This document shows positions 29,118 to 49,403 of a stretch of 64,000 nucleotides of DNA, in pieces. The position numbers were made by a program, and so were the translations under genes. The stretch lies in NCBI RefSeq assembly GCF_031886125.1, contig NZ_CP119391.1:1240001-1304000 (forward strand). The letters run 5' to 3'. The notes beneath the pieces were generated by a model. It saw nothing but the letters and a program-made list of their open reading frames with translations, made no database searches and had not been told where the DNA came from. Source of the stretch: Halomonas piscis (GTDB lineage: Bacteria; Pseudomonadota; Gammaproteobacteria; Pseudomonadales; Halomonadaceae). Positions within the stretch are counted from its first letter, which is position 1; each line of letters opens with the position of its first letter.

Positions 29118-29143
29118 CGCACTGTAGCGTGGAGAAAAAACGC

Positions 29144-29168: not shown

Positions 29169-29192
29169 AAAGGCATTGAAACAGGAGCCCCC

Positions 29193-30128: not shown

Positions 30129-30153
30129 GTTATGGGGCGGGCCGGAGAAGAAA

Positions 30154-30366
30154 GTGGCTTATGTGAATACGTTGGAGCGCCAGGCGTTGGCCAAAGAGCG
30201 TATGAGCGCGCTGGAAAGCACACTGCGTAAACAAATGACACTCAAATTTGGTGATATACCGGCATGGGCGACTCAGCGTCTGGCTGACGCCAGCCAACAA
30301 GAGTTGGAAGTGTGGGCGGAGAAAAACATGACGGCCGATAGTCTGGAAGCGGTATTCGCGCACTGA
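30154..30366 (+). pseudogene. Duplicated C-terminal tail of the preceding Rpn gene
   Basis: A 70-residue frame from GTG 30154 repeats the last part of the gene before it (AYVNTLERQALAKERM...LKFGDIPAWATQR), but is diverged. A GGAGAAGAAA lies upstream, so it might still be translated as a small protein. It lacks the nuclease domain. The same terminator sequence as copy 1 follows. Confidence 0.55.
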
Positions 30367-30406
30367 CTCTCAGCTGATACCGCCCGTATCCTGAAGCACC
30401 ACGCAT

Positions 30407-30437
30407 AAAGAAGGCAGCCCCTGGAGGCTGCCTTTTT
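30407..30437 (+). terminator. Rho-independent terminator, repeated copy 2
   Basis: AAGGCAGCC/GGCTGCCTT stem with five T, nearly identical to the hairpin at 29087. The minus-strand integrase gene ends 15 bases further on. Confidence 0.88.
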
Positions 30438-30451
30438 CGTATCTGTCCGTT

Positions 30452-31696
30452 TTATTCCTGCGGATCTTCCGTCTCCGACCCGATGCGATCCCTTGCCCGG
30501 GGCAGTGTTCTGTCTGCCTGTGCCCGCTGCCGTCGGGTTTTATCCCACGGCACGGACTGGGCCGCTGAATCTGCTGCTGATACCAAGGAGTCATGGCTCA
30601 GGTGGGCATAGCGCTGAGTGGTAGTGATCTGGTGATGGCCCAGCAGTCGCTGCACCTCGTAGAGGCTGCGTCCGGCGTTGACAAGCATACTGGCGAAGCT
30701 GTGGCGTAAATCGTGAATGCGGAGCTCGGGCATCCCCGCCTGACGTCGTGCCGTATCCCAGCTGTAGAAAATGGCGGTAAACGGCTTACCTGTTCTCGGG
30801 TTGGGAAAGAGAAATCCTTGCCCCTCCTCCCTCGGAATCTTGGCCAGTAGCGACAGCATCCCGTCCGACAGCGGCACGAAGCGCGTTTTCCCCGTCTTGT
30901 TGAACTTGATACGCCAAATTTGCTTTTCCTGGTCCATGTCTTCCCACCGAGCCGTCAGCACCTCCCGTCGCCGTGCGCCGGTGAGTAGTAGCATGGCAAC
31001 AATGAAAGGCAGCTGTGTATTGCGCGATGTCTCCAGCGCCTCGAACAACCTTACCGATTCTTCCTCCTTCAGATACCGATCCCGCTTGTTATTCACCGGG
31101 TACAGGTCAATCCCGGTCGTCGGGTTGCGCGTCACACCTTCTACCTCCCATCGCAGCGCACAGTTATAAATGTAGCGACACAGCACCAGAGCGCGGTTAG
31201 TCGAGGCAGGCGCATGGGTCTGGCGGTGATAGGCCAGCATTTCGATCACATGCTGCTTTTTCACCTGGTCCATATGCAGTTTGCCCAGCCAGGGCAGGAT
31301 ATGCAGACGCAGGAAGGTTTCATCGGTTTCCCAGCTGCGCTTGCGGCTTTTGATGTGGGGCATGTACCAGCGCTCCACGAAATAGCCGAGCGTTGGCACT
31401 TTCTTCAGGGTTTCGCGCTTCTCGAACGGATCGTCGCCGGTCGCCACTTGAGAGAGCACGTCATGGGCTATTTTCCGCGCATCAGCCAGCTTCATTACGC
31501 TTACGCTGCCCAGCTTGCGCTCTATCAGCTTGCCGCGTGCATCACGGTAGCGGATATAATAGGCTTTGTTGCCTGACTTCAGCACCTTGAGGGAAAAGCC
31601 CACGAGCTTGGTATCGTAGTAATCCATCCGGGCTTTATTGGCGGGGCAGGTAGCGGCGCCGTCGACAAACTGCTGGGTTAGTGTCATTTTGGGCAT
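30452..31696 (-). CDS. Tyrosine recombinase / phage-type integrase
   Basis: A 414-aa site-specific integrase. An N-terminal arm-binding domain (GFSLKVLKSGNKAYYIRYRDARGK) and a core-binding domain precede the catalytic part. Active-site residues are visible: R in TGARRREVL, K in NKTGKTRFVPL, H-x-x-R in IHDLRHSF, H in GHHQITTTQRY and the nucleophile Y in QRYAH. AAGGA lies upstream of the start at 31696. The gene points into the island with its start towards the right edge, as is usual when the attachment site is next to the integrase promoter. No tRNA gene was seen nearby. Confidence 0.93.
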   Translation of the reverse strand: MPKMTLTQQFVDGAATCPANKARMDYYDTKLVGFSLKVLKSGNKAYYIRYRDARGKLIERKLGSVSVMKLADARKIAHDVLSQVATGDDPFEKRETLKKVPTLGYFVERWYMPHIKSRKRSWETDETFLRLHILPWLGKLHMDQVKKQHVIEMLAYHRQTHAPASTNRALVLCRYIYNCALRWEVEGVTRNPTTGIDLYPVNNKRDRYLKEEESVRLFEALETSRNTQLPFIVAMLLLTGARRREVLTARWEDMDQEKQIWRIKFNKTGKTRFVPLSDGMLSLLAKIPREEGQGFLFPNPRTGKPFTAIFYSWDTARRQAGMPELRIHDLRHSFASMLVNAGRSLYEVQRLLGHHQITTTQRYAHLSHDSLVSAADSAAQSVPWDKTRRQRAQADRTLPRARDRIGSETEDPQE

Positions 31697-31798
31697 ATAG
31701 GCATCCTTCAGCTATTTAAGGCCTTTTTTTGTCACAAAAGTCAGCATCGATAACTTCAGTGTATGCTAGCTGGCGAAAACCCGGAGCACAAGCCCTGT

Positions 31799-32647: not shown

Positions 32648-34933
32648 ATGCTCACTGCAGACATCATCGACACCCTTGCCGGCGACAGCGGCAACAACGT
32701 GTTCGACGCCACCGAGCTCAACAGCCTCGCATCCGGCGACTCCATCATTGACAACAACCCCAATGATAACGACGTGCTCAACGCCGAGATCAAAACGGCC
32801 AACCTGACCGGCGTGACCATCCAGAACGTCGAGGAGATCAACCTCAACGCTCAGACGCTGGGAGCAACCCAGTTTGATGCGGGCAGCGTCACCCACACCA
32901 ACGTCGGCGGCACCACCATCACCGTGAGCAACCAGCGCGCGGCGTTCGGTGACTTCACCGTTTCCGGCGCGGATGACAACAACGTCACCGCCGGTAACAA
33001 CATCACCAAGCTGACCGTTAACGACCTGACAGGCGGCGTGGTAGACGCCGGCCAAGCCGAGACCGTCACCGTTTCCGGCTCTGGCGATACCGACGGCGCA
33101 GCGAACGTGATTGCCAACGGCGAACTGACGCTGAACGTGTCTGGTTCTGCCACTGGCCTGAACCTCGAAGCTACCGTCGACTCTACCGTTGACCTGACTA
33201 CTGCTAGTGTTACCGACATCGCCGGCTCCGGCGAAGGCGCGCTGACGCTGGAAGGTGATTTTTCTGGCGCCACCAGCGTCACCGGCGTTGATACCGTCGT
33301 TCAGGATACTGACGCATCCGTTAACGCCTCCGAGTGGGAAGTGGGCACCATCGACCTCGCAGCAGCTGACTACAGCGGCTCGCTGACCGTTGCCGACGGC
33401 CAGGACGTGACCATCTCCGAAACGCTTTCCGGCGACGGCTCCGGCGGTACCATCAAGGGCGACGCCAGCAACACCGCTGATACCGTCAACGTCACAAGCG
33501 CGCTGGCAAGCCTGGGCAACCTGACGTTTGCCGACCTCGCCACGGCCAGCATCGAGCTGACCAACGCCGAAGGCGCGGCGCTGGGCACGCTGACCACCGC
33601 GGGTGCTGATACCACCATCACCAGCGCGTCTGACCTGGCGATCGACACGCTGGCCTCCAGCGGTGACGAAGTCACGCTGAACGTAGCAGGCGATGTCAAC
33701 CTGTCTAGCGGCTCCAGTGCAGAAAACCTCGACGCCTCCGGCGTGACCGGCGCACTGCAGAAGAGCACCGACGGCGGTGCTGATGGTGCACAAGAAGCGG
33801 CTGACTTCACCGCTGACAACGTCGTCGTCACCGGCGGCCAGGGCAACAACAACGTCTCCTTCACTGGTGACTCAGGCTCCGAAGATACGGTCGAATACAC
33901 CGGCTTCGCCGGCGACGACACGATCGAGCTGGGCAGCTCCGGCGGCACATCAGCCGTCAGCCTCACCGGCGGCGAGAACACCGTTACCGCAACGGCGCTG
34001 ACTACCGGCACGTTAGCCGTAGCTACCGAAGGCGGCAACACCACCGTTGAGCTGGCTGATCTGACCGACGGCGGCACCGTGGTGTTTGACGCGCTGGGCG
34101 CAGGCAACGACACCATCAGCATCACGTCTGACGATATCGGCACGTCCAACATCATCGGCACCTTCGCCAGCGGCACCAACACCCTGGAGCTGACCGAATC
34201 TGGTAGCGGCAGCGGCTCCGATGTGTCCAAGGCCAACCTGCAGCTGGAAGGCCTGACCGACATCGCACTGGGCAGCGACGCGACGTTTGCGGTTAGCCAG
34301 CTGAGCGGCGAAACGCTGAACGTGTCCAACGTTGCAGACAGCAACAACAACGTGCTGAAAGTCGGCGATGCTGCCGAAACAGCCGCTCAGACCATCGACC
34401 TGTCCGGCCTGACGCTGCAAAATACCGGCGGTATCGAAGATCTGGAAGTGACGGCTAGCGTCACCGGCGGCAGCGGCGATGACACCATCACCGTGGGCAC
34501 CGGCACGTTCGCTGTTAACCAGTCTGAAGGCACCGACAGCTACACCTTCGGCGCAGGCGCAGACACCTACGTGGCTGCTGCTTCTGCCAAGAGCGAAATC
34601 GACGTCATCAGCGGCTTCGATGCCAGCGAAGACAAGATCGACTTCAGCGATGCCTTCTCTGGCGATGGGTTCACCGACCTGACTGAAGGCAACGGTGCCA
34701 TCGAGTTCTCCACGGCGGACTACGCCAACGTAGACGCGGTGCTGGCGACCTTTGCTGCTGAAGGCAACGATCTGGCCACCGGCGCAACCGTGTTCGAGTT
34801 TGACGGCAGCACCTACGTGGTCGGCAGCGCTGATGGTGAATACGGCGCATCTGCTGACACCGTCATCGAGCTGACCGGCGTTGACCTCGGCCTGACGTCT
34901 GCCAACTTCGAGCTGGCTACCAGCGGCACCTAA
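32648..34933 (+). CDS. Second surface-layer/RTX-like protein, N-terminus apparently missing
   Basis: A 761-aa beta-repeat protein of the RsaA-like type I-secreted class. It begins abruptly inside a common internal motif (LTADIIDTLAGDSGNNVFDATELNSL, cut into here), without the anchoring N-terminal domain. The body is Thr/Ser/Gly/Asp-rich; RTX-like units appear late (GGQGNNNVSF, GGSGDDTITVG, GAGADTYV) and the end is typical of a type I signal region (VIELTGVDLGL). No good ribosome-binding site precedes ATG 32648; AAGGAG at about 32599 instead precedes an ATT in the same frame. Probably truncated by island insertion or rearrangement. Confidence 0.75.
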   Translation: MLTADIIDTLAGDSGNNVFDATELNSLASGDSIIDNNPNDNDVLNAEIKTANLTGVTIQNVEEINLNAQTLGATQFDAGSVTHTNVGGTTITVSNQRAAFGDFTVSGADDNNVTAGNNITKLTVNDLTGGVVDAGQAETVTVSGSGDTDGAANVIANGELTLNVSGSATGLNLEATVDSTVDLTTASVTDIAGSGEGALTLEGDFSGATSVTGVDTVVQDTDASVNASEWEVGTIDLAAADYSGSLTVADGQDVTISETLSGDGSGGTIKGDASNTADTVNVTSALASLGNLTFADLATASIELTNAEGAALGTLTTAGADTTITSASDLAIDTLASSGDEVTLNVAGDVNLSSGSSAENLDASGVTGALQKSTDGGADGAQEAADFTADNVVVTGGQGNNNVSFTGDSGSEDTVEYTGFAGDDTIELGSSGGTSAVSLTGGENTVTATALTTGTLAVATEGGNTTVELADLTDGGTVVFDALGAGNDTISITSDDIGTSNIIGTFASGTNTLELTESGSGSGSDVSKANLQLEGLTDIALGSDATFAVSQLSGETLNVSNVADSNNNVLKVGDAAETAAQTIDLSGLTLQNTGGIEDLEVTASVTGGSGDDTITVGTGTFAVNQSEGTDSYTFGAGADTYVAAASAKSEIDVISGFDASEDKIDFSDAFSGDGFTDLTEGNGAIEFSTADYANVDAVLATFAAEGNDLATGATVFEFDGSTYVVGSADGEYGASADTVIELTGVDLGLTSANFELATSGT

Positions 34934-35247: not shown

Positions 35248-36435
35248 TTGATTGAGCGTGGGCGTCAGTGGGGCTGGGCGGCGGGTGCCGTGGCCGTGGC
35301 GCTGCTGGCGGTGTGGCTGCGGGCCAGCCCGGCGCTGTTTATCCACGGCGCCAGCGGTCTGATTGACTGGAACTATACCCAGCTTCTGTTCCGCTATGAT
35401 GCCGGCTTTATCAAGCGTGGCCTGCTGGGCACGCTGCTTGGGTGGCTGCCCGGCACGCTGGACTACGCCACGGCAAGCCGGGTGGCCTATGCGCTGCTGG
35501 GCGTGCTCGCCGTGGCGTTTTTGCTGCCGTTTGTGCGGGTGTGGCGCGCAGCCGAAGGGCGAGCGGGGGCGCTGTGGCTGCTGCTGCTGGCGGTAACGTC
35601 GCCGGCCACCCTTGGTCACTTTGCCCGGGACGTAGGGCGCACGGATGCCGTGGTGCTGGCGCTCGCTATAGCGCTGCTGCTGGGGCTTGGCCGCTTGGGC
35701 GGTGCCCGGCGCGGCGCGGCGGCGGCGCTGGTGCTGAGCGTTAACGGCGCGGCCATACTCATTCACGAGGCGGCATTTTTCATGGTGGTGCCGCTGACTC
35801 TGGCCTTTTGGCACTATCGCGATGCAGCCCGCGCGGCGCTGGCATGGCAGGGGGCGTGCCTGGCAGCGTTGACGGCGCTGACGTATCTGGTGTCGACCCG
35901 GGGCGGGTTTGACGCCGTGCCGCTGGCCGAGCGCTTTGCCGAGCTACAGAGCGCTTATGGGGCGCATGTAGATAAGGGTTCGCTCAGCGTTTTGTACCAC
36001 ACGGGCCTTGCCGAAAACGTGCGCCATACGCTGGCAGAAGGGTTTCGTCCGGCGCGGCTGGCGCACCATGCGGTGCTGTTAGCCGCGCTGTTGCCGTTTG
36101 GCTATGTGGCGGTGCGGGTGCTGGCGGCGGTGCGCCGAGACATGAGCGTACGGGCCTGGCTGCTGCTGGCAGCGGCGTTTTCACCGCTGGCGCTGTATCC
36201 GCTAGGGCATGATCATTTTCGCTGGTGGTCGCTTGCTATCACCAACGCGCTGGTGGCGTTTGCCCTGCTGTGCCGGGCCGAGGGAGCGGTCGCTGAGCGG
36301 GCGCTGGCCTGCCTGGAAGCCAGCCGGCGCTGGGTTTGGGCTGCGCTGCTGCTGGCGCTGGTCACCGGCCCGCTTGGGGTGGTGACCAGCGTGGATGTGG
36401 CCGCCGCACTGCCCTGGCTGGAAACGCTGCGTTAG
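35248..36435 (+). CDS. Polytopic membrane protein of unknown function
   Basis: A 395-aa protein with about ten hydrophobic segments. A conserved-looking periplasmic stretch after the first helix reads DWNYTQLLFRYDAGFIKRGLLGTLLGWLPG, a feature I associate with large families of uncharacterised glycan-related membrane proteins. The frame begins with TTG at 35248; no good ribosome-binding site was noticed. Its stop overlaps the stop of the converging AftB-like gene by four bases. Context suggests a role in surface glycan assembly, but no catalytic motif was identified. Confidence 0.7.
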   Translation: MIERGRQWGWAAGAVAVALLAVWLRASPALFIHGASGLIDWNYTQLLFRYDAGFIKRGLLGTLLGWLPGTLDYATASRVAYALLGVLAVAFLLPFVRVWRAAEGRAGALWLLLLAVTSPATLGHFARDVGRTDAVVLALAIALLLGLGRLGGARRGAAAALVLSVNGAAILIHEAAFFMVVPLTLAFWHYRDAARAALAWQGACLAALTALTYLVSTRGGFDAVPLAERFAELQSAYGAHVDKGSLSVLYHTGLAENVRHTLAEGFRPARLAHHAVLLAALLPFGYVAVRVLAAVRRDMSVRAWLLLAAAFSPLALYPLGHDHFRWWSLAITNALVAFALLCRAEGAVAERALACLEASRRWVWAALLLALVTGPLGVVTSVDVAAALPWLETLR

Positions 36436-38108
36436 CGGGTAAACACGCCGCGAAAGTCTGCCGTGTGCTTCATGTCAAGATAGCTGCGTCGGGCCTCGGG
36501 GGTGAAGCTGTGGCCCAGTGCGCGCAAGAAGTCGTCCACCGCCAGCCGGCCGCTCCGCTTGACCAGATACAGATGATCGTGCCCGGCGTAGTAGCGCACG
36601 GCAAACACTCGGTAGGCGTCGGGGTGCTGCTCCAGGTGGGCGAGTACCGCCAGCGGCGCGCGGGACACGCCATAGTTGACGTCCTGCCAGTGTGCGCCGT
36701 GGCGCTTGCCGGCCAGCGCCCGGGCGGGGGTCAGTTCGCAGATGTCTTGCTGGCACATGCTGTCGTAGTGGGCCATACCGGCGGTATGGGTAAAGATCAG
36801 GTCGGGGTCGAGCCGCTGCAGATAGCCGGGCGATACCTTGTGGCGCGCGGTGTGGGCGGTGTTGAGCCCGACCAGGTCGTATTTCTTGCCCTGGGCCCAG
36901 TAGGCAAAGCGCCCGGCTTCCGTCAGGGCGATGGTGGTGTCCGGGGGCAGGTAGCGGTCCAGATAATAGGAGAAGTAGTAGATATATTCATTGCCCTGCA
37001 GCGCACGGATAATCCGTGCCCCGCTGGAGGCCTGCTGGGCGGTGGCAGCCAGTGCCAGCACGGCAAGGCCGACGATGGCCGCCCGGCGCAGCAGCGTGGG
37101 ACGCACGCGGTGAGCCAGGGCCTGGGGGAGCAGCGCGGCCCACATGATGAGCACGATTGTCCCCGGTGCCTGAAACCGAAAGGCGGCGTTCTGGCTTTGG
37201 GTGGCAAAGGCAAAGGCCAGCAGCAGGACCAGCATCGGCACCGCGGCGGCCAGCATGCGGCCGCGGCGGGGGTGCAGGGCCAGTGCAGCCAGCGCCAGCC
37301 CTGTTAGCAGCCGGTTGCTCCATAGCCAGTCCAGATGCGGGCCAAGCCCCGGTAGGCTTTCCACCGATGTGCTCTTGACGTATAGCGGCAGCGGCAGCAG
37401 CTGGCCAAAGTAGGCGTAGCGCCAGCCAAAGTAGGCAAGCCCCACGGCAGCGCAAGCCAGCGCAGCGGCCAGGTAGGGTTTGAGCTCGCGCTGGCGCCAG
37501 GCGATAACGGCGCCCAGCAGCGTGGCCGTGACGCCCATCAGCACGCCGTCCGGGCGCAGCAGCCCAAGAACAATGCCCACCGCCGGTATCAGCCATGTCC
37601 GCCGGCTGGGAGCGGCATATAGCAGGCAAAACAGGGCGGCGGTCAGCGCGCCATATAGTGCGGTACTGAACCCGGCCAGCGCGGCCTGAGCGATCTGGGA
37701 AGACAGCATGTAGAGCGTCACCAGCACGCCGGCCAGAAGGTAATGGTACCCCCGGTCGGCGGGGGCCAGCAGGCGCATGGCCAGCCAAACGATGCCGGCA
37801 AGCCCCAGGCCGTTGAGCAGCCCGGCGGCCTGGGCGACGTCAAGCCCCAGGTAGCGAGCGCCGGCAAGCATGATCATCCAGAGAAAGTCCGTTGCGCCTT
37901 CTGCCGGCGGGCCGCCGGGGAAGTAGGCGATGCCGTTGCCGTGAGCCAGGCTTTCGGCGTAGATGTACAGGATATAGGCGTCTTCGTGCAGGTGGCCGGT
38001 GGTCAACAGGTACTGCGTTAGCCCCCAGTAGGCCACCATGGCGACAACGGGAAATAGCCAGGCCGGTAGGCGCGGCGGATTATTCGGCGGAGTGTGTTCC
38101 AGAGACAT
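36432..38108 (-). CDS. AftB-like membrane glycosyltransferase (GT-C fold), putative arabinofuranosyltransferase
   Basis: A 558-aa GT-C-type protein with about ten membrane helices and a soluble C-terminal domain. The first periplasmic loop has the acidic motif HEDAYILYIYAESLAHGNG followed by GGPPAEGATDFLW. This resembles mycobacterial AftB and polyprenyl-phosphate-sugar-dependent transferases that use decaprenyl-phospho-arabinose. It is the last gene of the six-gene minus-strand operon and overlaps the HAD phosphatase end. Start is either 38108 or 38144. The acceptor (surface protein, pilin or lipopolysaccharide) cannot be told from sequence. Confidence 0.72.
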   Translation of the reverse strand: MSLEHTPPNNPPRLPAWLFPVVAMVAYWGLTQYLLTTGHLHEDAYILYIYAESLAHGNGIAYFPGGPPAEGATDFLWMIMLAGARYLGLDVAQAAGLLNGLGLAGIVWLAMRLLAPADRGYHYLLAGVLVTLYMLSSQIAQAALAGFSTALYGALTAALFCLLYAAPSRRTWLIPAVGIVLGLLRPDGVLMGVTATLLGAVIAWRQRELKPYLAAALACAAVGLAYFGWRYAYFGQLLPLPLYVKSTSVESLPGLGPHLDWLWSNRLLTGLALAALALHPRRGRMLAAAVPMLVLLLAFAFATQSQNAAFRFQAPGTIVLIMWAALLPQALAHRVRPTLLRRAAIVGLAVLALAATAQQASSGARIIRALQGNEYIYYFSYYLDRYLPPDTTIALTEAGRFAYWAQGKKYDLVGLNTAHTARHKVSPGYLQRLDPDLIFTHTAGMAHYDSMCQQDICELTPARALAGKRHGAHWQDVNYGVSRAPLAVLAHLEQHPDAYRVFAVRYYAGHDHLYLVKRSGRLAVDDFLRALGHSFTPEARRSYLDMKHTADFRGVFTR

Positions 38109-38784
38109 GAGCAATTCGCTGCCAGCAGTGGGGTGAAAAGACATCGGCCGAATCGGCGTCGGGCGGCGGCCGGCGGCGCTTGCGCCGCATCAGCCCGGTC
38201 TCTACCAGTTGCAGCATGGGCAGGTCGCCTTCGGTATCGCCATAGGCGTAGGTGGTGGCCGGGGCGGCCCGGGCCACCAGCGGCGCGATGCGGCGGGCCT
38301 TTTCGGCACCGTGGCAGTTGCGCCCGGCCAGCCGCCCGGTGACCCGGCCGTGAGCGGTTTGGGCCAGCGAGCTGCATATCACCCGGGAAAATCCCGCCTG
38401 AGCCGCCCAGGGGGCGAGGTAGATATCCAGCGAGGCACTGACCAGCACGCATTCATGCCCCCGGGCCTGGTGCCAGTCAAGCTGTGCCATGCCGCTGGGG
38501 CAGAGCATGGCGGGGATGGCCTCGGCGGCAAAGCGGCGGCCGCATGCCTGCAGTTCGGCCATGGCATGACCGGCGAGATAGCGCTTGAGCACGATCTGCT
38601 TGGCGATGTCGTTGCGCAAAAGCCCCGCGGCATAGGCTCCCAGCACCGGCGACAGCCAGGCCAGCCTGGCGTAGTAGGCCGGCGCGCCGACGGCAAAGCG
38701 CAAAAACGGCATCAGCGTATCGCCCCAGGTCAGGGTGCCGTCAAAGTCAAAAAAGGCCACAGGTTGCGGGGGCGCCTGGTTCAT
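38080..38784 (-). CDS. HAD-IB family phosphatase
   Basis: A 234-aa hydrolase. HAD motif I is FFDFDGTLTWGD (nucleophile Asp and acid Asp), motif II is VSASLD, and motif IV is YGDTEGDLPML. In the pathway model it would remove the 5-phosphate from decaprenyl-phosphoryl-5-phosphoribose before the epimerisation step; mycobacteria are thought to use a different phosphatase class here. Start 38784 overlaps the SDR stop by four bases (ATGA). The pathway role is inferred from operon position. Confidence 0.85.
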   Translation of the reverse strand: MNQAPPQPVAFFDFDGTLTWGDTLMPFLRFAVGAPAYYARLAWLSPVLGAYAAGLLRNDIAKQIVLKRYLAGHAMAELQACGRRFAAEAIPAMLCPSGMAQLDWHQARGHECVLVSASLDIYLAPWAAQAGFSRVICSSLAQTAHGRVTGRLAGRNCHGAEKARRIAPLVARAAPATTYAYGDTEGDLPMLQLVETGLMRRKRRRPPPDADSADVFSPHCWQRIAHVSGTHSAE

Positions 38785-39563
38785 AGTGACAGCCGCTTGA
38801 ACAGCGTCTCGGGAATATGGCGAATAATCAGCATGATGGGATGCCAGAACCATGGCAGGTAAACCACGCTTTTGCCCCGCTGCATGGCGCTGACGATGCC
38901 GCGGGCAACCTGCTCGGGGGTGGCCCAGAGCGGGCCGCCCTTGTTGATGTCTGCGGTCATGGGGGTGTCCACAAAGCCGGGCTTGACGGTCACCACGGCC
39001 ACGCCGGCACCGGCTAGCCGGTTACGCAGCCCCTGCAAGAATACCGAGACCATGCCCTTGGCGGCACCGTAGACGTAGTTGCTCTGGCGGCCGCGGTCGC
39101 CGGCGACCGAGCTTATCACGGCCAGCACGCCGTGGCGGCTGGCTTCCATGCGGTTGGCCAGGTGCGTCAGCAGGCTGACGGTGCTGAGCGCGTTGGTCTG
39201 GCACTGGGCCAGGGTCAGGTCGGCATTGCCCTGGCAGGCGGCCTGGTCGGGCAGCGAGCCGTGGGCGATGAGCGCGGCGTCAAGGCTGCCCAGATGGGCT
39301 TCGGCGGCGTCGATCAGGGCGCCGTGGCCGTCGGTGTGATTCAGGTCTGCGTGGCAGCCGTCAATTCGCCGGGCGTCGCCGGCGCGGACGCGCAGGTCGT
39401 CCAGCAGGGCCTGTAGCTTGTCGGGGTCGCGGCCTATGCAGTAAAGCGAGGCTCCGTGCGCAACCAGTTGTCGGGCGGTCTGCTCGGCAATGGCTGAGGT
39501 TGCGCCAAAAATCACCACGCGCCGTAACGGCCGGGCAGATGCGGTAAACGAAAGCAGGCTCAT
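38781..39563 (-). CDS. dprE2: DprE2-like short-chain dehydrogenase
   Basis: A 260-aa SDR. NAD-binding motif FGATSAIAEQ near the N-terminus, catalytic SSVAG...YVYGAAKG (Ser, Tyr-x-x-x-Lys), and a C-terminus ending RHIPETLFKRLSL that closely parallels the end of mycobacterial DprE2 as I recall it. DprE2 reduces the 2-keto intermediate to decaprenyl-phosphoryl-arabinose. Start 39563 overlaps the DprE1-like stop (ATGA), so the two subunits of the epimerase are coupled. Assignment is strong because both partners are adjacent. Confidence 0.85.
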   Translation of the reverse strand: MSLLSFTASARPLRRVVIFGATSAIAEQTARQLVAHGASLYCIGRDPDKLQALLDDLRVRAGDARRIDGCHADLNHTDGHGALIDAAEAHLGSLDAALIAHGSLPDQAACQGNADLTLAQCQTNALSTVSLLTHLANRMEASRHGVLAVISSVAGDRGRQSNYVYGAAKGMVSVFLQGLRNRLAGAGVAVVTVKPGFVDTPMTADINKGGPLWATPEQVARGIVSAMQRGKSVVYLPWFWHPIMLIIRHIPETLFKRLSL

Positions 39564-40858
39564 GGGGTGACTCGCTGCCAGAAACGGGAAGAAAAGTCGG
39601 GGTCGATAAAGCGGCTGAACGCCTCCCACTCGGGGAAGCCGGACTGAAACAGGTGGGCCGGCATGCGCGCATCCTTGGCCGGGTACAGTGCGCCGCCTGC
39701 CGCGCTGACAATCGCGTCCAGGTCAGCCAGCAGCCGCTGAGTATCGCGGCCGCGGTTGGGGAAGTCCAGCGCCAGGGTGGTGCCCGGCCGGCAGAACGAC
39801 AGCATGCCCGGGGCCGGCGCATGGCCCAGGGTCTTGAGCACGGCCAGAAAGGAGCCGTCGCCGCGCCGCGCTACGGCGTCTAGCAGGGCGGCTATGGCAT
39901 CTTCGGCACTTTCGGGCGGGATGACGCACTGGTACTGATAAAAGCCGCGCCGGCCGTAGATGCGGTTCCAGCGCTGAATGGCGTCCAGCGGGTAGAAAAA
40001 CGGCACGTAGTGGCCAAGGGTGCCGCCGGGGTGGGTCGGCTGACGGTAGTAAAGCGCGTTGAAGGCGCGCAGGCTCAAGCCGTTGACCAGCGAAAACGGC
40101 GGGTCGAACGGTATGCGCCGGCGACGCTCGTGAAACTGGGGGAGGCGGGGTTGAGGGGCGGCATGGCGTCCGGCCATCAGCAAGCCGCGCCCTCGTGCCC
40201 GGCCCCGTGCCAGGCAGTCAATCCAGGCGACGGTGTAGGGCCAGTCTGCCTCGGCCTGACGGCTGAGCGGCCAGAAAGCGTCCAGGTTGCCAAAGCGCCA
40301 GGATGCGGTGTGCAACCAGGGGTTGTGTATGGGCAGAAGGGCAAGCTGTACTTCGAGAATCAGCCCGGTCAGCCCCAGCCCGCCCACGGTGGCGGCAAAC
40401 CAGCCGTCGTCGTCGGGGCGGCAGTGAAGCACGCTGCCGTCGCTGCGCGCCAGCGTGAGCGCGTGAACGTGGTGGCCAAAGCTGCCGGCCACGTGGTGAT
40501 TCTTGCCGTGGACATCGTTGGCTACGGCACCGCCGACGGTGGCAAGGCGGGTACCCGGGGTGCAGGGCAGGAACCACCCGCAGGGCACCGTCAGCGCCAG
40601 CACCTCGGCCAGGGTGGTGCCGGCTTCGCAGCGCAGCAGGCCGCGTTCGGCGTCAAACTCGATGAAGCGATCCAGCCCCCGGGTCAGCAGCAGGGTGCCG
40701 CGCTCGGTCAGGCAGACGTCGCCGTAGCTGCGGCCGTTGCCGTGGGCCAGCAGCGGGCGCGGCAGCCGGGCCGGCAGCCCGGCGTGGCGCTGGGTCAGGG
40801 CGTGGGTGGCGTCCGGCGTCACCCGGGGCAGGCGGTTCCAGGAGCCGGGGGCATTCAT
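39560..40858 (-). CDS. dprE1: DprE1-like FAD-dependent oxidase (decaprenyl-phosphoryl-ribose 2-oxidase)
   Basis: A 432-aa FAD-linked oxidase of the VAO type. The FAD-binding part has AHGNGRSYGDVCL and PGTRLATVGGAVANDVHGKNHH; the C-terminal part has FLAVLKTLG, LALDFPNRG and GGALYPAKDARM, matching the mycobacterial enzyme pattern. The position equivalent to its inhibitor-reactive cysteine (Cys387 in M. tuberculosis, in ...CVDFP) is here Ala, near residue 363 (alignment by eye). The start at 40858 overlaps the preceding stop; a longer open frame upstream is not needed. Confidence 0.88.
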   Translation of the reverse strand: MNAPGSWNRLPRVTPDATHALTQRHAGLPARLPRPLLAHGNGRSYGDVCLTERGTLLLTRGLDRFIEFDAERGLLRCEAGTTLAEVLALTVPCGWFLPCTPGTRLATVGGAVANDVHGKNHHVAGSFGHHVHALTLARSDGSVLHCRPDDDGWFAATVGGLGLTGLILEVQLALLPIHNPWLHTASWRFGNLDAFWPLSRQAEADWPYTVAWIDCLARGRARGRGLLMAGRHAAPQPRLPQFHERRRRIPFDPPFSLVNGLSLRAFNALYYRQPTHPGGTLGHYVPFFYPLDAIQRWNRIYGRRGFYQYQCVIPPESAEDAIAALLDAVARRGDGSFLAVLKTLGHAPAPGMLSFCRPGTTLALDFPNRGRDTQRLLADLDAIVSAAGGALYPAKDARMPAHLFQSGFPEWEAFSRFIDPDFSSRFWQRVTP

Positions 40859-41823
40859 GAGGCGGGCTCCGTCAGGCGTTTCTCGAGGCGGCTGCCCATC
40901 AGGCAGCCAAGGCCAATGGCCACGGCAAACCACAGGGTGGCTAAACGTGTAAAAACGGTGGCGGCCACTGCCGCAGCGGGGGGCATGCCGGCCACGGTGA
41001 GCAGCGAGACCATGACCGCCTCGGCGCTGCCCAGTCCGCCGGGCAGGAAGCTTAACGCGCCGGCCAGCATGGCCAGCGCGTAGATAAAGCAGGCAAGGCC
41101 CAGCGACACGTCGGCGCCCAGCCAGCCCAGCACCCAGTGAAAGGCCAGGGCTTCGGCACCCCAGGCGACCAGGCCAAGCAGGGTGGCCTGTGCCAGCATG
41201 GCCGGCTGGTGGCAGCGCCGCGCCCGCAGGAGAACATCGCTGGCGTGGCTCAGTAGCGTCATCAGTCGGCCGCGGCGGCGTGCGGCAAAGCGGTAAAGCG
41301 CGGCCGGCAGGGCCTTGCTTGTCAGGCAGCCAAGCGCCAGCAGAAGGCTCGCGGCACCGGCCAGTACCAGCCCGTGGGCCTGTGGGTATTGCGCCAGCCC
41401 GAACAGCGTGAGCATGAGCACGGCCAGCAGGTCCGACAGGCGTTCGCTGATAAAGGCGGCGAAGGTGGCCGGGTAGGGAACGCCATGGGGCTTGAGCAGC
41501 ACGCCGCGAAACGCCTCGCCGGCCTTGCCCGGGGTGGTAGTGAGGGCGAAGCCGCCGAGGTAAATGCGCAGGCTGGCAGGCCAGGTCACGGCGTGCCCCA
41601 GCTGTTTCAGATACCGCTGCCAGCGCACGAAGCGCAGGCCGTAGTTGACCAGCGATAGCCCCAGTGCTGCGCCGGTGCCGGCAAGGCCAATCTGCCCGAA
41701 GGCAGCGGTGACGTCGTGCCAGCCGCTCCAGAAGGCAACGCCCAGGTAGCCTGCCGCCGCCACGCCGATGGAGAGTACCAGGGCGCGCAGCGGCCAGCCG
41801 CGGGTGACGGTACGGCGGGTCAT
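40855..41823 (-). CDS. Flippase-like membrane protein (lysylphosphatidylglycerol synthase TM/UPF0104 family)
   Basis: A 322-aa polytopic protein with about seven to eight helices. The family signatures are LRIYLGGFALTTTPGKAGEAFRG and AGALSFLPGGLGSAEAVM. Members include the membrane half of MprF and proteins in glycolipid loci; a lipid-flipping role is often suggested. Start 41823 overlaps the UbiA-like stop as ATGA. In this operon it could move lipid-linked arabinose across the membrane, which is an inference. Confidence 0.82.
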   Translation of the reverse strand: MTRRTVTRGWPLRALVLSIGVAAAGYLGVAFWSGWHDVTAAFGQIGLAGTGAALGLSLVNYGLRFVRWQRYLKQLGHAVTWPASLRIYLGGFALTTTPGKAGEAFRGVLLKPHGVPYPATFAAFISERLSDLLAVLMLTLFGLAQYPQAHGLVLAGAASLLLALGCLTSKALPAALYRFAARRRGRLMTLLSHASDVLLRARRCHQPAMLAQATLLGLVAWGAEALAFHWVLGWLGADVSLGLACFIYALAMLAGALSFLPGGLGSAEAVMVSLLTVAGMPPAAAVAATVFTRLATLWFAVAIGLGCLMGSRLEKRLTEPAS

Positions 41824-42713
41824 GCCAGTATCCACAGGGTCGCGATGAGCCAGATGCCGAGGGTGGCAAGCATGTGCCGATCCTGAATCAGGTCCCGGGC
41901 GGTATCGTTGCCTCGGGCACGCCGATGGAGCAAGAACACGTAGCGGAAAATGCCGTACACCACCAGCGGCAGGGTGTAGACCAGCGCGGTACTGCCGTGA
42001 AGCTCGACGGCCTGGGGCGAGACGGTATATAGCCCGTAGGCCAGAATGGTGCAGGCCGCCGTGACGCCGATGAACTGGTCCAGCATGGCCGGGCTGTAGT
42101 CGTCCAGCACGCGCCGCGCCAGGCTGCGGTCGGCGCGGGGGTCGTCGAGCACCAGCAGTTCGGCACGGCGTTTGGCAAAGCCCAGAAACAGGGTCACCAT
42201 CAGGCCGCAGAGCAAAAGCCAGGCGGAGGGTGCCAGGCCCAGCCCGGCCGTGCCGGCGAGGATGCGCAGCATAAAGCCTGATGAAATCAAAAAGACGTCG
42301 AGTATGACCACGTGCTTGAGCCGCCATGAGTACAGCACGTTCACTCCGAGGTAGGCCGTCAGGCAGAGCGTGACGCCGGGGCTGACCCAAAGCGAAAGCG
42401 CCAGGGCGCTGGCCGCCAGTATCGCCAGTAGCTGGATGGCACGGCCGTGGGAGAGCGCCCCGCTGGGCAGCGGGCGATGCTGCTTGACCGGGTGCGCCCG
42501 GTCAGCCTCGATGTCCATGAGGTCGTTCATCACATACACTGCGCTTGCCATGGCGCAGAAGGCGGCAAATACCAGCAGAGCCTGACCCAGCGTGTCCAGG
42601 CTCCACTGGTGGGCGAAAAGCGGCCCCAGAAAGACAAAGCCGTTTTTCAGGTATTGGTGAGGGCGCATCAGCGTGAGAGTCGGCCGCATGGTCACAGCAT
42701 CCGGTACGGGCAT
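41820..42713 (-). CDS. UbiA-family phosphoribosyl-polyprenyl transferase (DPPR synthase-like)
   Basis: A 297-aa membrane prenyltransferase with about eight to nine helices. Its N-terminal part contains MRPHQYLKN and SAVYVMNDLMDIEADRAHP, combining the Asp-rich N-D-x-x-D-x-x-x-D motif with the His-Pro and Arg-Pro context typical of decaprenyl-phosphate phosphoribosyltransferases (mycobacterial Rv3806c type). The second Asp-type motif is less obvious. It would commit phosphoribosyl pyrophosphate to lipid-linked ribose. First gene of the operon; the divergent SapC gene starts 142 bases away. A later ATG at residue 9 is an alternative start. Confidence 0.85.
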   Translation of the reverse strand: MPVPDAVTMRPTLTLMRPHQYLKNGFVFLGPLFAHQWSLDTLGQALLVFAAFCAMASAVYVMNDLMDIEADRAHPVKQHRPLPSGALSHGRAIQLLAILAASALALSLWVSPGVTLCLTAYLGVNVLYSWRLKHVVILDVFLISSGFMLRILAGTAGLGLAPSAWLLLCGLMVTLFLGFAKRRAELLVLDDPRADRSLARRVLDDYSPAMLDQFIGVTAACTILAYGLYTVSPQAVELHGSTALVYTLPLVVYGIFRYVFLLHRRARGNDTARDLIQDRHMLATLGIWLIATLWILA

Positions 42714-42855: not shown

Positions 42856-43629
42856 ATGCCTCAGTGGATCGCGTTATCCAGAACCGAGCATCGCCACAAG
42901 CGCCTGCTGCCCCGGGACGGCTATCGCTTTGCCGCCGCCGAGCGCGCGGTGCCCGTGTTGCTGGCCGAGCTCAACAAGGTGATTCCGCATTATTTGCTCG
43001 GTTTTATTGCCCAGGGCGAGGCGTTCGTGCCGGTCGCGCTGCTGGGCACCCGGGACAATGCCTATCTGGCACCGGACGGCCGCTGGCTGGGTGCCTACGT
43101 GCCGGCCACGCTGCGCGGCTATCCCTTTACCCTGGCCGGTGCCGAGGACGGCAGCCGGGTGCTGGCCGTGGAGGCCGGCCACCTGACCGACGACGACCAG
43201 GGCGAGCCGCTGTTCGACGGTGATGCGCCGAGTGCTACGGTCAATCAGACGCTGGAGTTTCTTCAGCAGTGCGAACAAAGCCGCGAGACCACGCTCAAGG
43301 CCACCCGGGTGCTGGCTAAACACGGCCTGCTGGCCGAGTGGGATCTGGCCGTCCCTACCGATGCCGACGGCGGCACGCCAGTCAAGCTCGACGGCGTCTA
43401 TCGGCTGGATGAAGCCAGGCTGAATCAGCTCGACGGCGAAGCGCTGTGCGACCTCAAGGGCGCGCCGCTGACGCTGGCCTACGCCCAGATGTTTGCCACC
43501 GGGCAGCACAAGGCGCTGGCCGAGCGGCTGGCGTTTCAGGCCAGGCACGCAGCGCAGCAAGAGGCCCCCGATGATCTGGAGAGCTTCTTCGGTGAAAGCG
43601 ACGACGAGCTGACCTTTGACTTTGACTGA
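42856..43629 (+). CDS. SapC-family protein, copy 2
   Basis: A 257-aa SapC protein, clearly paralogous to the copy at 15228: same opening MPQWIALSRTEHRHKRLLPR, same LLAELNKVIPHYLLGF, same APDGRWLGAYVPATLRGYPF block and same acidic DDELTFDFD end. An imperfect ribosome-binding site (AAGGAC) precedes the ATG. It is divergent from the arabinose-lipid operon and followed after 46 bases by the metallo-beta-lactamase gene. Its link to surface-layer biology comes from family naming and from copy 1. Confidence 0.88.
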   Translation: MPQWIALSRTEHRHKRLLPRDGYRFAAAERAVPVLLAELNKVIPHYLLGFIAQGEAFVPVALLGTRDNAYLAPDGRWLGAYVPATLRGYPFTLAGAEDGSRVLAVEAGHLTDDDQGEPLFDGDAPSATVNQTLEFLQQCEQSRETTLKATRVLAKHGLLAEWDLAVPTDADGGTPVKLDGVYRLDEARLNQLDGEALCDLKGAPLTLAYAQMFATGQHKALAERLAFQARHAAQQEAPDDLESFFGESDDELTFDFD

Positions 43630-43675: not shown

Positions 43676-45139
43676 ATGTCACTGAAGGATCAGCATCATA
43701 CCCCGCGTATCATCCACCACGGCGGCGCTTCGGGCGTCACCGGCAGCTGCCACGAGCTGGTGGCAAGCCCGGAGCACTCGCTTTTGGTGGACTGCGGGCT
43801 GTTTCAGGGCGAAGACGCCGCGGCTGACGCCTTCGCCCAGCTTGAGGTGAACTTCGATATCAGCCGGGTGCGGGCGCTGGTGATCACCCACGTCCACATC
43901 GACCACGTGGGCCGGCTGCCGTACCTGCTGGCGGCGGGCTTTAGTGGGCCGATTATTTGCTCCAAACCCACCGCCGAGCTTTTGCCGCTGGTATTGGAAG
44001 ACGCGCTGAAAATCGGCTTTACCCGCAACCGGGCGCTGATCGAGCGCTTTGTTGACCGGGTCCGCGAGCTGACCGTGGCGCTTGGCTACCGCCGCTGGCA
44101 CGACGTGGTGAATGACGCGGGCCTGGCGCTGCGGGTCAAGCTCAAGCGGGCGGGGCATATTCTGGGGTCGAGCTACGTGGAAGTCGCCGTCAATGACAAG
44201 ACGCATGGCGACAAGGGCCCTGGCCAAAGGCACCGGGTGGTGTTCTCGGGAGACCTCGGCGCGCCGCATTCGCCGCTGCTGGCGGCACCCCGTTCGCCCT
44301 ACGGGGCGGACGTGCTGGTGCTGGAATCCACTTACGGTAACCGCCACCACGAAGGCCGGCGCGAGCGCAGCCAAGCGCTTGAGCGTGCCATCGAACAGGC
44401 GCTTGAGAACCGCGGCACGGTGATTATTCCGGCGTTCAGCATCGGCCGTACCCAGGCGCTTTTGTACGAGCTGGAGGGCATCGTCCACCGCTACAAGACC
44501 CGGGCCGCTCAGGCCGGCCGGCTGGACTGGAGCGCGCTGGAGATCATCGTCGACTCCCCCCTGGCCGCGCGCTTTACCCGGGTCTACCGGCGGCTTGCGC
44601 CATACTGGGACGCCGAGGCGCAAAGGCGTTTGCGGTCAGGCCGCCACCCCTTGAGCTTTGCCGGCGTCTACACCGTGGACGACCACGCCGAGCACGAGCA
44701 GACCGTCAAGTATCTGGCCCAGAGCGGCCGCCCGGCGGTGGTGATTGCCGCCAGCGGCATGTGCGCCGGCGGGCGGGTGGTCAACTATTTGCGCGCGATG
44801 CTGGGTGACCCGCGCCACCAGGTGCTGTTTGTGGGCTATCAGGGCGCGGGCACCCCGGGGCGGGACATTCAGCGCTACGGCCCCGCCGGCGGCTACGTGG
44901 TGCTCGACGGCGAGCGCATTGACATTCGCGCCGGTGTGACCACCATCAGCGGCTATTCGGCCCACGCCGGGTGCGACGACCTTTTGCGCTTTGTACGCCG
45001 CATGCGCCGCTGGCCGGGGGAGATCCGTCTGGTGCACGGCGACGACCACGCCCGCCGGGCATTGAAGCAGGAGCTTGAGGCCATGGCGCAAAAGCGCGGT
45101 GAGAACGCCAGGGTGATGCTTCCGCAAAACGCGGTCTGA
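43676..45139 (+). CDS. Beta-CASP metallo-beta-lactamase-fold RNase-like protein
   Basis: A 487-aa protein. Zinc-binding motif HVHIDHVG (H-x-H-x-D-H) near residues 72-80, further metal ligands in GHILGSSYVE and SGDLG, then the beta-CASP part with ESTYGNR, IPAFSIGRTQALLYEL and a late GYSAHAG histidine. This is the plan of bacterial CPSF/YcjI-like exonucleases that process RNA. GGAGGAG precedes the ATG. No obvious functional link to its surface-related neighbours; it may be a stand-alone gene with SapC copy 2. Confidence 0.88.
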   Translation: MSLKDQHHTPRIIHHGGASGVTGSCHELVASPEHSLLVDCGLFQGEDAAADAFAQLEVNFDISRVRALVITHVHIDHVGRLPYLLAAGFSGPIICSKPTAELLPLVLEDALKIGFTRNRALIERFVDRVRELTVALGYRRWHDVVNDAGLALRVKLKRAGHILGSSYVEVAVNDKTHGDKGPGQRHRVVFSGDLGAPHSPLLAAPRSPYGADVLVLESTYGNRHHEGRRERSQALERAIEQALENRGTVIIPAFSIGRTQALLYELEGIVHRYKTRAAQAGRLDWSALEIIVDSPLAARFTRVYRRLAPYWDAEAQRRLRSGRHPLSFAGVYTVDDHAEHEQTVKYLAQSGRPAVVIAASGMCAGGRVVNYLRAMLGDPRHQVLFVGYQGAGTPGRDIQRYGPAGGYVVLDGERIDIRAGVTTISGYSAHAGCDDLLRFVRRMRRWPGEIRLVHGDDHARRALKQELEAMAQKRGENARVMLPQNAV

Positions 45140-46540: not shown

Positions 46541-47611
46541 GTGAAAATATTGGTAACCGGCGGGGCGGGGTTCATCGGCTCCGCCGTGGTGCGCCACTTG
46601 ATCCACGATACCGAGCACGCGGTGGTCAACCTCGATGCGCTGACCTACGCGGGCAATCTGGAGTCGCTTTCCGGCGTGGCGGACCATGAGCGCTACGTCT
46701 TCGAGCACGTCGACATCACCGATGCCGAGGCGGTGGCGCGGGTGCTGGGTGAGCACCGGCCCGACGTCATCATGCACCTGGCGGCGGAGTCCCACGTGGA
46801 CCGCTCCATCGACGGCCCGGCGGCGTTCATGCACACCAATATCATGGGCACCTACACGCTGCTGGAGGCCGCCCGCACCTACTGGCAGGGTTTGCAGCAG
46901 AGTGCGCCGGAAAAGGCCGCCGGGTTCCGCTTTCATCACGTCTCTACCGACGAGGTCTACGGCGATCTGGAAGACCCCGCCGAGCTGTTCACCGAAGAGA
47001 CCTCCTACGCGCCCAGCTCGCCGTATTCGGCGAGCAAGGCAAGCTCTGACCACCTGGTGCGCGCCTGGCAGCGTACCTTCGGCCTGCCGGCGGTGCTGAG
47101 CAACTGCTCGAACAACTACGGGCCGTATCACTTCCCCGAGAAGCTGATCCCGCTGATGATCTTGAACGCGCTGGCGGGCAAGCCGCTGCCGGTGTACGGC
47201 AACGGCCAGCAGGTGCGCGACTGGCTGTACGTGGAAGACCACGCCCGGGCGCTGGTACGCGTGGCCCTCGAGGGCCACAACGGCGAGACCTACAACATCG
47301 GCGGCCACAACGAGAAAACCAACCTTGAGGTGGTTCATGCCCTGTGCGACCTGCTCGACGAGCTGGCGCCGGAAAACGCCCCCCGGGGCGGAGGCTACCG
47401 CGAGCTGATCACCTTCGTCGCCGACCGCCCGGGCCACGACCTGCGCTACGCCATCGACGCCGGCAAGATCGAGCGCGAGCTTGGCTGGCGGCCGGAGGAG
47501 ACCTTTTCCACCGGCCTGCGCAAGACCGTGGAGTGGTACTTGCACCACCGCGAGTGGTGGCAGCGAGTGCAGGACGGCAGCTACCAGGGCCAGCGGCTGG
47601 GGGTGCTGTAA
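46541..47611 (+). CDS. rfbB: dTDP-glucose 4,6-dehydratase
   Basis: A 356-aa extended SDR. N-terminal [11 protein letters not shown] binds [26 protein letters not shown] (Thr, Asp, Glu of the active site) and [12 protein letters not shown] (Tyr-x-x-x-Lys) are all present, as is [18 protein letters not shown]. It converts dTDP-glucose to the 4-keto-6-deoxy sugar. Start is GTG at 46541 with AGG close upstream. The next gene begins directly after its stop, so rfbB-rfbD-rfbA form an operon. Confidence 0.95.
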
Positions 47612-48538
47612 ATGGCGGATACGGTACCGCAGCAAAAAACGATACTGGTGACCGGCGGCAACGGCCAGGTCGGCTTTGAGCTGCGCCGGGCGCTGGCCCC
47701 GCTGGGCCGGGTGCTATCACCCGGTCGGCAAGAGCTGGACCTGACCGACAGCGCCGCGGTAGACCGCTGGCTCGAGCGCCACGCGCCGGATCTGATCGTC
47801 AACGCCGCGGCCTATACCGCGGTGGATAAAGCCGAGGACGAACCGGCGCTTGCCCGGCGGCTGAACGCCGAGCTTCCCGCGCAGCTGGCGGCTTACTGCG
47901 CCGCGCGCGGGGCCTGGCTGGTGCACTATTCCTCGGACTACGTCTACAGCGGCGAGGGCAACACCCCCTGGCAGGAAGACGCCGCCACCGCGCCGGTCAA
48001 TGTCTACGGCGAGACCAAGCGCGACGGCGACGCGGCGGTAGCGGGGAGCGGCTGCGAGCACCTGATTTTTCGTACCAGCTGGGTGTACAGCGCCCCGGGC
48101 GGCAATTTCGTCAACACCATGCTGCGCCTGGGGGCGGAGCGCGAGGCGCTGAGCGTGGTGGCCGACCAGATCGGCGCGCCGACCCCGGCGCGGCTGATCG
48201 CGCAACTCACTGCGCTGGCGCTTTCCGCCTGGCCGCGCACCGGCGAAGCGTCCGTGGCGCCCGGCGTTTACCATCTGGCGCCCCGGGGCGAGGCCAGCTG
48301 GCACGACGTGGCCGTGGCCACCTTTGATGAAGCCGCCCGGCTGGGCATGCCGCTGACGATAACCCCCGAGGCGGTGGCGCCCATTGCCACGGCGGATTAC
48401 CCCACGCCGGCGCCAAGGCCGCTGAATTCGCGCCTGAACCTCGCCCGCCTGGAGGAGGCGCTGGGCGTGACGCTGCCCCACTGGCAGGCGCAGCTGGCGC
48501 TGACCGTAGAAGAAGCAAGGAGGCACCATGCAACGTAA
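47612..48538 (+). CDS. rfbD: dTDP-4-dehydrorhamnose reductase
   Basis: A 308-aa [14 protein letters not shown] binds [33 protein letters not shown] and [10 protein letters not shown] carry the catalytic Ser/Tyr/Lys region. This enzyme performs the last step of dTDP-L-rhamnose synthesis. Its ATG follows the rfbB stop with no gap, and its end overlaps rfbA by 11 bases. Its presence implies rhamnose is the intended sugar even though no rfbC epimerase is in view. Confidence 0.95.
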
Positions 48539-49403
48539 GGGCATTATTCTCGCAGGCGGCAGCGGCACGCGCCTGCACCCGATTACCCGCGGGGTTTCCA
48601 AGCAGCTGTTGCCCATTTACGACAAGCCGATGATCTACTACCCGATTTCGGTGCTGATGCTGGCCGGCATCCGCGAGATTCTGATCATCTCCACCCCGGA
48701 GGACTTGCCCCAGTATAAAAACCTGCTGGGCAGCGGCGAGGCCTTTGGCCTGCGCTTCGAGTACGCCGTGCAGCCAAGCCCGGACGGCCTGGCCCAGGCG
48801 TTTCTCATCGGCGAAGACTTTATCGGCGACTCTCCGGTGTGCCTGGTGCTGGGGGATAACATCTTCCATGGCCAGCACTTTTCCGACCAGCTGACACGTG
48901 CCGCGGAGAAGCCCAGTGGGGCAACGGTGTTCGGCTATCTGGTCAACGACCCGGAGCGCTTTGGCGTGGTGGAGTTCGACGCCGACGGCCGGGCCATCTC
49001 CATCGAGGAAAAGCCCGAGGTGGCGAAGTCGCCCTATGCCGTCACCGGGCTTTATTTCTACGACAGCGACGTGGTGGATATCGCACGCCGGGTCGAGCCC
49101 TCCGAGCGCGGCGAGCTGGAGATCACCAGCATCAACAACGCCTATCTCGAGCGCGGCGACCTGAGCGTGGAGCGTTTGGGCCGCGGCTTTGCCTGGCTGG
49201 ATACCGGCACCCATGACAGCCTGCTGGAGGCCAGCCAGTACGTTCAGACCATCGAGCACCGGCAGGGACTGAAAGTGGCTTGCCTGGAAGAAATCGCCTG
49301 GCAGCAGGGGTGGCTGAGCGATGAGGACCTGGCCACCGCGGCGGAGGCGCTGAAAAAGACCGGCTACGGCCAGTACCTCAAGCGCCGCCTTCGGGCCGGC
49401 TGA
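48528..49403 (+). CDS. rfbA: Glucose-1-phosphate thymidylyltransferase
   Basis: A 291-aa nucleotidyltransferase. The start [30 protein letters not shown] is diagnostic; [18 protein letters not shown] and [19 protein letters not shown] follow in normal order. It makes dTDP-glucose, the first step of the pathway. Overlaps rfbD by 11 bases. A terminator lies 54 bases after the stop, so the operon ends without rfbC. Confidence 0.95.

Follow-up and report, generated by a model that had tools for sequence, protein, structure and literature searches.

We analyzed a window of 64,000 nucleotides from the 3.23 Mb single-contig genome of Halomonas piscis (NZ_CP119391.1, positions 1,240,001 to 1,304,000), in which seven genes between positions 35248 and 42713 very likely build lipid-carried D-arabinose. 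Our overall reading, which we hold to be probable, is that these genes make and use polyprenyl-phosphate-D-arabinofuranose (D-Araf), the sugar being added in the periplasm, likeliest to a polysaccharide of the Wzx/Wzy type. The tuberculosis cell wall is the best-known place of D-arabinose, and D-arabinofuranose is regarded mainly as a sugar of mycobacteria. The basis is computational, namely protein families, active-site stretches, the fold of the first transferase (GT-C), and the conservation and co-occurrence of the genes of the operon; from these we infer every activity, the lipid, the role and direction of the flippase, the linkage and the acceptor.

Operon layout and donor-synthesis enzymes

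Six of the genes form a minus-strand operon (36432-42713, read from 42713 down), and four of its five joints are overlaps of 4 bases, in agreement with a preliminary description of this DNA that gave nearly all joints as such. The operon encodes a UbiA-type polyprenyl-phosphate phosphoribosyltransferase of 297 amino acids (aa) (41820-42713), a PF03706 flippase-like membrane protein of 322 aa (40855-41823), a DprE1-like flavin adenine dinucleotide (FAD) oxidase of 432 aa (39560-40858), a DprE2-like SDR reductase of 260 aa (38781-39563), a HAD-IB phosphatase of 234 aa (38080-38784) and a GT-C protein of 558 aa (36432-38108). At the joint between the HAD and GT-C genes the overlap is 29 bases, or 65 with an alternative start, the GT-C gene having an ATG at 38108 and a second in-frame ATG at 38144. 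A further gene on the plus strand (35248-36435, TTG start) encodes a membrane protein of 395 aa and is convergent with the GT-C gene, their 3' ends sharing 4 bases; it was missing from the gene list of the preliminary description, and we count it as the seventh gene of the system.

In the proposed route, polyprenyl-phosphate-D-Araf would be made on the inner side of the cell, where the separate HAD protein would take off the 5'-phosphate, DprE1 would oxidise and DprE2 would reduce C2 to give the D-arabino epimer. The PF03706 protein would flip the lipid-linked sugar across the inner membrane to its periplasmic side, and the GT-C protein, with its AftB-like donor site, together with probably a second GT-C-like protein, would transfer D-Araf to a periplasmic acceptor. 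The likeliest acceptor would be the polysaccharide of the Wzx/Wzy-type locus in the window, perhaps one holding the surface layer.

Pfam and NCBIfam scans of the window proteins, taken up to E 0.001, agreed with the family calls already proposed for the first five proteins of the operon (UbiA, flippase-like, DprE1-like, DprE2-like and HAD). The UbiA-type protein passes the decaprenyl-phosphate phosphoribosyltransferase model NF008977 with 259.6 bits (cut-off 234) and matches the solved structure 8j8j with E 4.3e-31, the stretch NDxxDxEADRxHPxKxxRP being present in both. The DprE1-like protein scores 325.9 bits with NF053785, its next-best family reaching 38.7 bits, and it is by this gap in score that we set it apart from unrelated oxidases; query residues 34-421 align with the mycobacterial enzyme 4aut (E 3.7e-65), the two sharing the HGKNHH, QYQ and AKD stretches, and an alanine stands in place of the cysteine of the NVCVDF stretch of 4aut, which we take to be the benzothiazinone target. 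For the DprE2-like protein, the unnamed SDR model PRK07102 gave 301.5 bits (cut-off 267) and NF053786 171.3 bits, while the best PDB match, with E 1.5e-30, was chain C of 21gq, a DprE2 reductase in which the YxxxK site falls in register and the chain likewise ends in RHIPxxxFxxL. The HAD protein passes the HAD-IB model TIGR01490 (148.6 bits, cut-off 98.3) and would probably be the 5'-phosphatase of the lipid-linked ribose 5-phosphate. Moreover, the strings on which attention had been drawn earlier, MNDLMDIEADRAHP in UbiA, LYPAKDAR in DprE1 and RHIPETLFKRL in DprE2, are all present in the translations. A first look through the genome for oxidases of the ALO family (PF04030) found none.

What weighs against a D-Araf pathway is that DprE1 (325.9 of 500 bits) and DprE2 (171.3 of 250 bits) both fall under the NCBI equivalog cut-offs; by these scores the two proteins are relatives of the named enzymes and no certified equivalogs. 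Taken together, the family scores, the active-site stretches, the conservation of the operon and the genome-wide co-occurrence strongly support the synthesis of lipid-linked D-arabinofuranose, which the preliminary description had already proposed.

Transferase candidates and their co-occurrence with DprE1

The GT-C protein had no Pfam or NCBIfam match at E ≤0.001, and its single sequence found no PDB match up to E 1; its structural model, with a predicted local distance difference test (pLDDT) of 93.5, matches structures of the GT-C fold. When a profile of the family was compared with the PDB, the best match was the mycobacterial AftB, a retaining enzyme which adds beta-(1->2) D-Araf, although this match is weak and non-significant (E 0.17) and the alignment runs only to chain residue 278, short of R372. 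In this weak alignment D43, T73 and R185 of the GT-C protein, invariant in 36 sequences, fall on AftB D62, the catalytic residue, and on T91 and R221, residues of the phosphate site. Of the earlier label "AftB-like GT-C", the fold and the placement of these three residues stand, and the sequence match is weak; the model and the residues support a probable D-arabinofuranosyltransferase whose donor site resembles that of AftB.

The 395 aa protein is a probable second GT-C-like protein, as its model, of moderate confidence (pLDDT 73.5), has GT-C-type chains in all of its best 45 structure matches. No Pfam match was found even at E 10, nor any PDB match to its profile up to E 5. Three of its relatives (P0125, P0126 and P0128) bear the precomputed label PF27463.1, and a Pfam scan of P0125 and P0128 gave no match.

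To place these genes we used a set of 390 genomes of the order, the source genome being counted in each tally, with thresholds of E 1e-40 for DprE1 and E 1e-10 for the GT-C profile; at most 3-4 candidates were scored per genome. A separate search scored only the 7999 candidates sharing most words. DprE1 was found in 69 of the 390 genomes. The GT-C family was present in 17, belonging to 13 families, and all 17 are DprE1-positive (hypergeometric 2.7e-14); five of these matches are strong (E <1e-100) and 12 weak. In one genome (G279) GT-C and DprE1 lie on different contigs, so that the co-occurrence is more than linkage alone. The 395 aa family was detected in 13 genomes of 9 families, again every one of them with DprE1 (13/13; hypergeometric 6.1e-11), and it is in or near the D-Araf loci L005, L047, L095 and L100; we assign this gene to the system because all 13 carriers hold DprE1 and its model looks like GT-C.

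A scan of named genomes yielded 40 GT-C loci across several phyla, with DprE1 (E 1e-20) in 36 of the 40 genomes; the four negative ones (L011, L029, L037 and L043) are all metagenome-assembled genomes (MAGs). UbiA, DprE1 and DprE2 are near GT-C in 12 of these loci, UbiA and DprE1 are at the far end in 2, and none is seen in 26. The two genome sets overlap, at least for L007/G279 and L014/G099, which have identical DprE1 positions.

Relatives of GT-C and DprE1 were also seen in small marine genomes and MAGs of 1.0-1.3 Mb (L013, L022, L033, L039 and L040; Litoricola, Pelagibacteraceae), and by sequence such streamlined plankton may make D-Araf. In Apibacter (Bacteroidota; L016 and L017) UbiA, DprE1, DprE2, GT-C and a separate HAD are found together. 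In six loci (L050, L052, L056, L081, L085 and L088) dprE1/dprE2 are followed by the gene of a membrane protein (568-612 aa) and then by open reading frames (ORFs) of about 320, 430, 133-164, 326-354 and 640-667 aa in a conserved order, possibly another transferase set. In L103-L105 the order dprE1-dprE2-ubiA is kept, and the upstream gene, of 767-787 aa with 11-12 predicted membrane segments, is possibly a GT-C of their own.

Phosphatase forms, flippase candidate and history of the locus

A gene-neighbourhood survey, which had been proposed for the Halomonadaceae, was run across the order and covered 60 of the 68 other DprE1-positive genomes (G112, G114, G197, G214, G249, G308, G370 and G387 were left out); the loci repeatedly bring together genes for UbiA, a phosphatase, DprE1 and DprE2 with one of flippase type. 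One locus (L066) has no UbiA ORF, leaving 59 for the UbiA counts. ORF calling relied on a simple script that takes the longest first, which is error-prone in GC-rich DNA and missed DprE1 and the flippase in L021 and UbiA and the flippase in L025; all were recovered by tblastn.

A long UbiA was found in 51 of the 59 loci, and each of the 51 has a HAD-type DxDG[TS] motif in its first 110 residues; a profile search within 6 kb of dprE1 detected a separate HAD gene in none of them. UbiA is short in the remaining 8, of which four (L047, L048, L049 and L100) have a separate HAD and three (L054, L075 and L101) a DUF212 PAP2-type protein, while L055 ends at a contig edge. By sequence, the D-Araf phosphatase thus comes in three exchangeable forms: fused to UbiA, as a separate HAD protein or as a DUF212 PAP2-type protein.

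The flippase-like protein of the window scores 160.2 bits with PF03706 (cut-off 33.4), and its adjacency to ubiA makes it the probable flippase of the lipid-linked sugar. A gene matching the flippase profile, which was derived from the surveyed loci themselves (the Pfam scan for PF03706 covered the window's protein), lies within 6 kb of dprE1 in 38 of the 59 loci, and in 36 of the 38 loci carrying both (L047-L106) it is no more than 60 bases from ubiA. Among the 40 GT-C loci, which tblastn split into 14 with and 26 without DprE1 in reach (L021 counted as with), a flippase-type gene was detected by tblastn in 4 of the former and in none of the latter. An alternative is that the PF03706 protein acts on another lipid and that a general flippase serves the D-Araf pathway: PF03706 is a broad family, named for the membrane region of lysyl-phosphatidylglycerol synthase, its flippase role is read from sequence, and in 21 of the 59 loci no gene of this type is found within 6 kb of dprE1. 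However, the tight adjacency to ubiA and the distribution among the GT-C loci argue against it, and five of the loci examined, lacking a PF03706-type gene or having it alongside, carry GtrA-type proteins (L008, L052, L054 and L075) or an EamA-type protein below its cut-off (L098); we regard this alternative as unlikely. Among the papers listed by a literature search, none was found to pair PF03706 or LPG_synthase_TM with a D-Araf pathway, which does not prove absence, as such genes may already be in print.

Regarding the history of the locus, a DprE1 tree of 72 rows (L001-L004, L045, L046 and DprE1 ORFs shorter than 330 aa being left out) places the DprE1 of the window among six rows that form one clade (support 100/99), each of them having a short UbiA and a separate HAD. 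Advenella, of the Alcaligenaceae, is nested in this clade, thus the D-Araf cassette probably moved between lineages. The GC content of the cassette, 0.675, is near that of the right flank (0.658-0.671). Within the genus, DprE1 was found in 2 of 82 genomes, that of the source and one that matches Vreelandella jeotgali; the latter is the nearest named relative, which fits the halophile-like gammaproteobacterial host suggested beforehand, probably a salt-loving bacterium.

Acceptor, known systems and surroundings

The preliminary description suggested a D-Araf-modified surface protein or glycan, and of the two the glycan is the likelier. The window holds a Wzx/Wzy-type polysaccharide locus (4754-11843, plus strand), with Wzz-like, Wzx-like and Wzy-like proteins, GT4 and GT2 glycosyltransferases and a WcaJ-type initiating transferase (TIGR03023, 467.1 bits, above cut-off), and also rmlB, rmlD and rmlA for dTDP-rhamnose (46541-49403, plus strand; TIGR01181, TIGR01214 and TIGR01207, all above cut-off), and their presence makes a glycan acceptor likelier. 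Within that locus the Wzz-like and Wzy-like proteins were assigned by eye from sequence and had no family match in the Pfam/NCBIfam scans, the other components being assigned through Pfam. Type I secretion takes proteins out of the cell in a single step, so that they should not pass through the periplasm, where GT-C enzymes act. A hydropathy scan of the surface-layer-like proteins found no hydrophobic N-terminus, which is what type I export would lead one to expect, and a PrtD-type system is encoded in the window (13-4680, plus strand; ABC protein TIGR01842 786 bits, HlyD-type adaptor TIGR01843 378.7 bits, TolC-type channel TIGR01844 255.2 bits, all above cut-off); these proteins should therefore bypass a periplasmic transferase, which leads us to prefer, with modest confidence, a polysaccharide over a type I-secreted surface-layer-like protein as acceptor.

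Second, and unlikely in our estimation, comes a periplasmic or surface protein such as the type IV pilin, D-Araf on type IV pilins being known in Pseudomonas paraeruginosa (as described in the available part of PMC12369383). The genome has two pilin matches, and in locus L048 five donor genes come just after a pilin gene, with one gene between; yet the pilin matches of H. piscis lie near 1.874 Mb, about 0.6 Mb from the D-Araf locus, the genome's only matches to DprE1, to the GT-C profile and to the 395 aa profile are inside the window, and so is the polysaccharide locus. Moreover, the GT-C gene of L048 is different, reaching only 34 bits with the GT-C family profile; the same donor genes standing there between a pilin gene and another GT-C-type gene suggest that the donor module stays the same while the acceptor end can be exchanged. 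The two pilin matches (1874059-1874893) are in tandem, and one of them is interrupted by a TAG; nearby there are repeated ORFs, each of about 147 aa.

Less probable still is that the acceptor is one of the surface-layer-like proteins encoded at 32648-34933 and 12339-15128. Surface-layer-like genes neighbour the D-Araf genes, SapC genes are near both, and in V. jeotgali, too, an acidic surface-layer-like protein and SapC are encoded near the cassette; the lack of a hydrophobic N-terminus and the type I secretion system speak against it, and a D-Araf-modified type I-secreted surface protein was set low, as its route should bypass the periplasm. That the genes make another lipid-linked pentofuranose, or have a non-glycan redox role, is highly improbable: the SDR, HAD and UbiA families are broad and DprE1 and DprE2 score under their equivalog cut-offs, but UbiA, a phosphatase and the two DprE proteins are repeatedly encoded together with a flippase-type protein, and the DprE1 stretches match the mycobacterial enzyme, with the best other oxidase model at 38.7 against 325.9 bits.

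Polyprenyl-phosphate-D-Araf added to a polysaccharide would be a pathway already known in kind. Pentofuranose three-component systems have been described for Citrobacter youngae O1/O2, and candidate Araf systems contain DprE1/E2 homologues (available part of PMC11127046). Like the Citrobacter system, the locus has a UbiA-type polyprenyl phosphoribose synthase, a HAD phosphatase, a membrane flippase candidate and a periplasmic GT-C; unlike it, the HAD is separate, no phosphatase being fused to the synthase (as it is in 51 of 59 relatives' loci), the flippase candidate is of PF03706 and not of the MATE family described there, and there are two GT-C candidates. The mycobacterial decaprenylphosphoryl-D-arabinose (DPA) pathway shares relatives of UbiA, DprE1 and DprE2 with the window, and the three AftB donor-site residues are in place (compared with the portion of PMC12041299 at hand). 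It differs in having Rv3807c, a phosphatase unrelated to HAD, and the SMR-type Rv3789 where H. piscis has HAD and PF03706 proteins, according to the same text of PMC11127046, which also states that the synthase of P. aeruginosa depends on a separate phosphatase from a different structural family. With the P. paraeruginosa pilin system, where D-Araf pilin genes are found with TfpW, the likeness is by description: gammaproteobacterial D-Araf genes including ubiA, and a D-Araf transferase. Here no pilin gene is linked, which is a weak test since biosynthesis island and pilin cassette are separate loci there too (available part of PMC12369383). The separate HAD, the PF03706 flippase candidate and the two GT-C candidates are the variant features of this locus, and some of its parts look new.

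The 69 DprE1-positive genomes of the order suggest that lipid-linked D-Araf is common in Gram-negatives, and the locus offers testable names for missing parts: a PF03706 flippase, a three-form phosphatase and two transferase families. A bolder proposal, which we put forward tentatively and consider doubtful, is that a widespread Gram-negative branch of D-arabinose chemistry relies mainly on PF03706 proteins to flip polyprenyl-phosphate pentofuranoses, and that the two GT-C families lacking a Pfam name are D-arabinofuranosyltransferases, one of them AftB-like and perhaps retaining, which decorate a polysaccharide anchoring the type I-secreted surface layer. With this locus it can be tested whether the decoration of a glycan is linked to the anchoring of the surface layer, and halophiles of the genus are possibly convenient systems for DprE1/DprE2 and AftB-like chemistry.

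From its left end, the window contains in order the type I secretion genes, the Wzz-, Wzx- and Wzy-like genes, two glycosyltransferases, the WcaJ-type transferase, a surface-layer-like protein and SapC; a mobile island separates these from the second surface-layer-like gene, after which come the D-Araf genes, SapC and the rhamnose genes. The SapC protein beside the operon, noted before, is confirmed as a PF07277 protein (42856-43629, plus strand; 164.2 bits). The second surface-layer-like protein (32648-34933, plus strand; 761 aa) is acidic, with 116 D+E, 9 K+R and no cysteine; it had no Pfam match and its label comes from composition only. The mobile island (about 16000-31700; GC 0.559 over 16-32 kb) carries a YqaJ recombinase, a Gp3-like directionality factor, DUF932, transposases and a tyrosine integrase (30452-31696), and parts the two surface-layer-like genes and the two SapC genes. 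The plus-strand gene at 43676-45139 encodes a beta-CASP metallo-hydrolase whose best NCBIfam model is the type VII CRISPR-associated Cas14, with 288.8 bits against a cut-off of 800, and it is probably an ordinary beta-CASP nuclease. Just left of the window (genome positions 1226000-1242000), ORF starts indicated pieces resembling a polyketide synthase, as well as one ORF like a transposase and one like KpsC.

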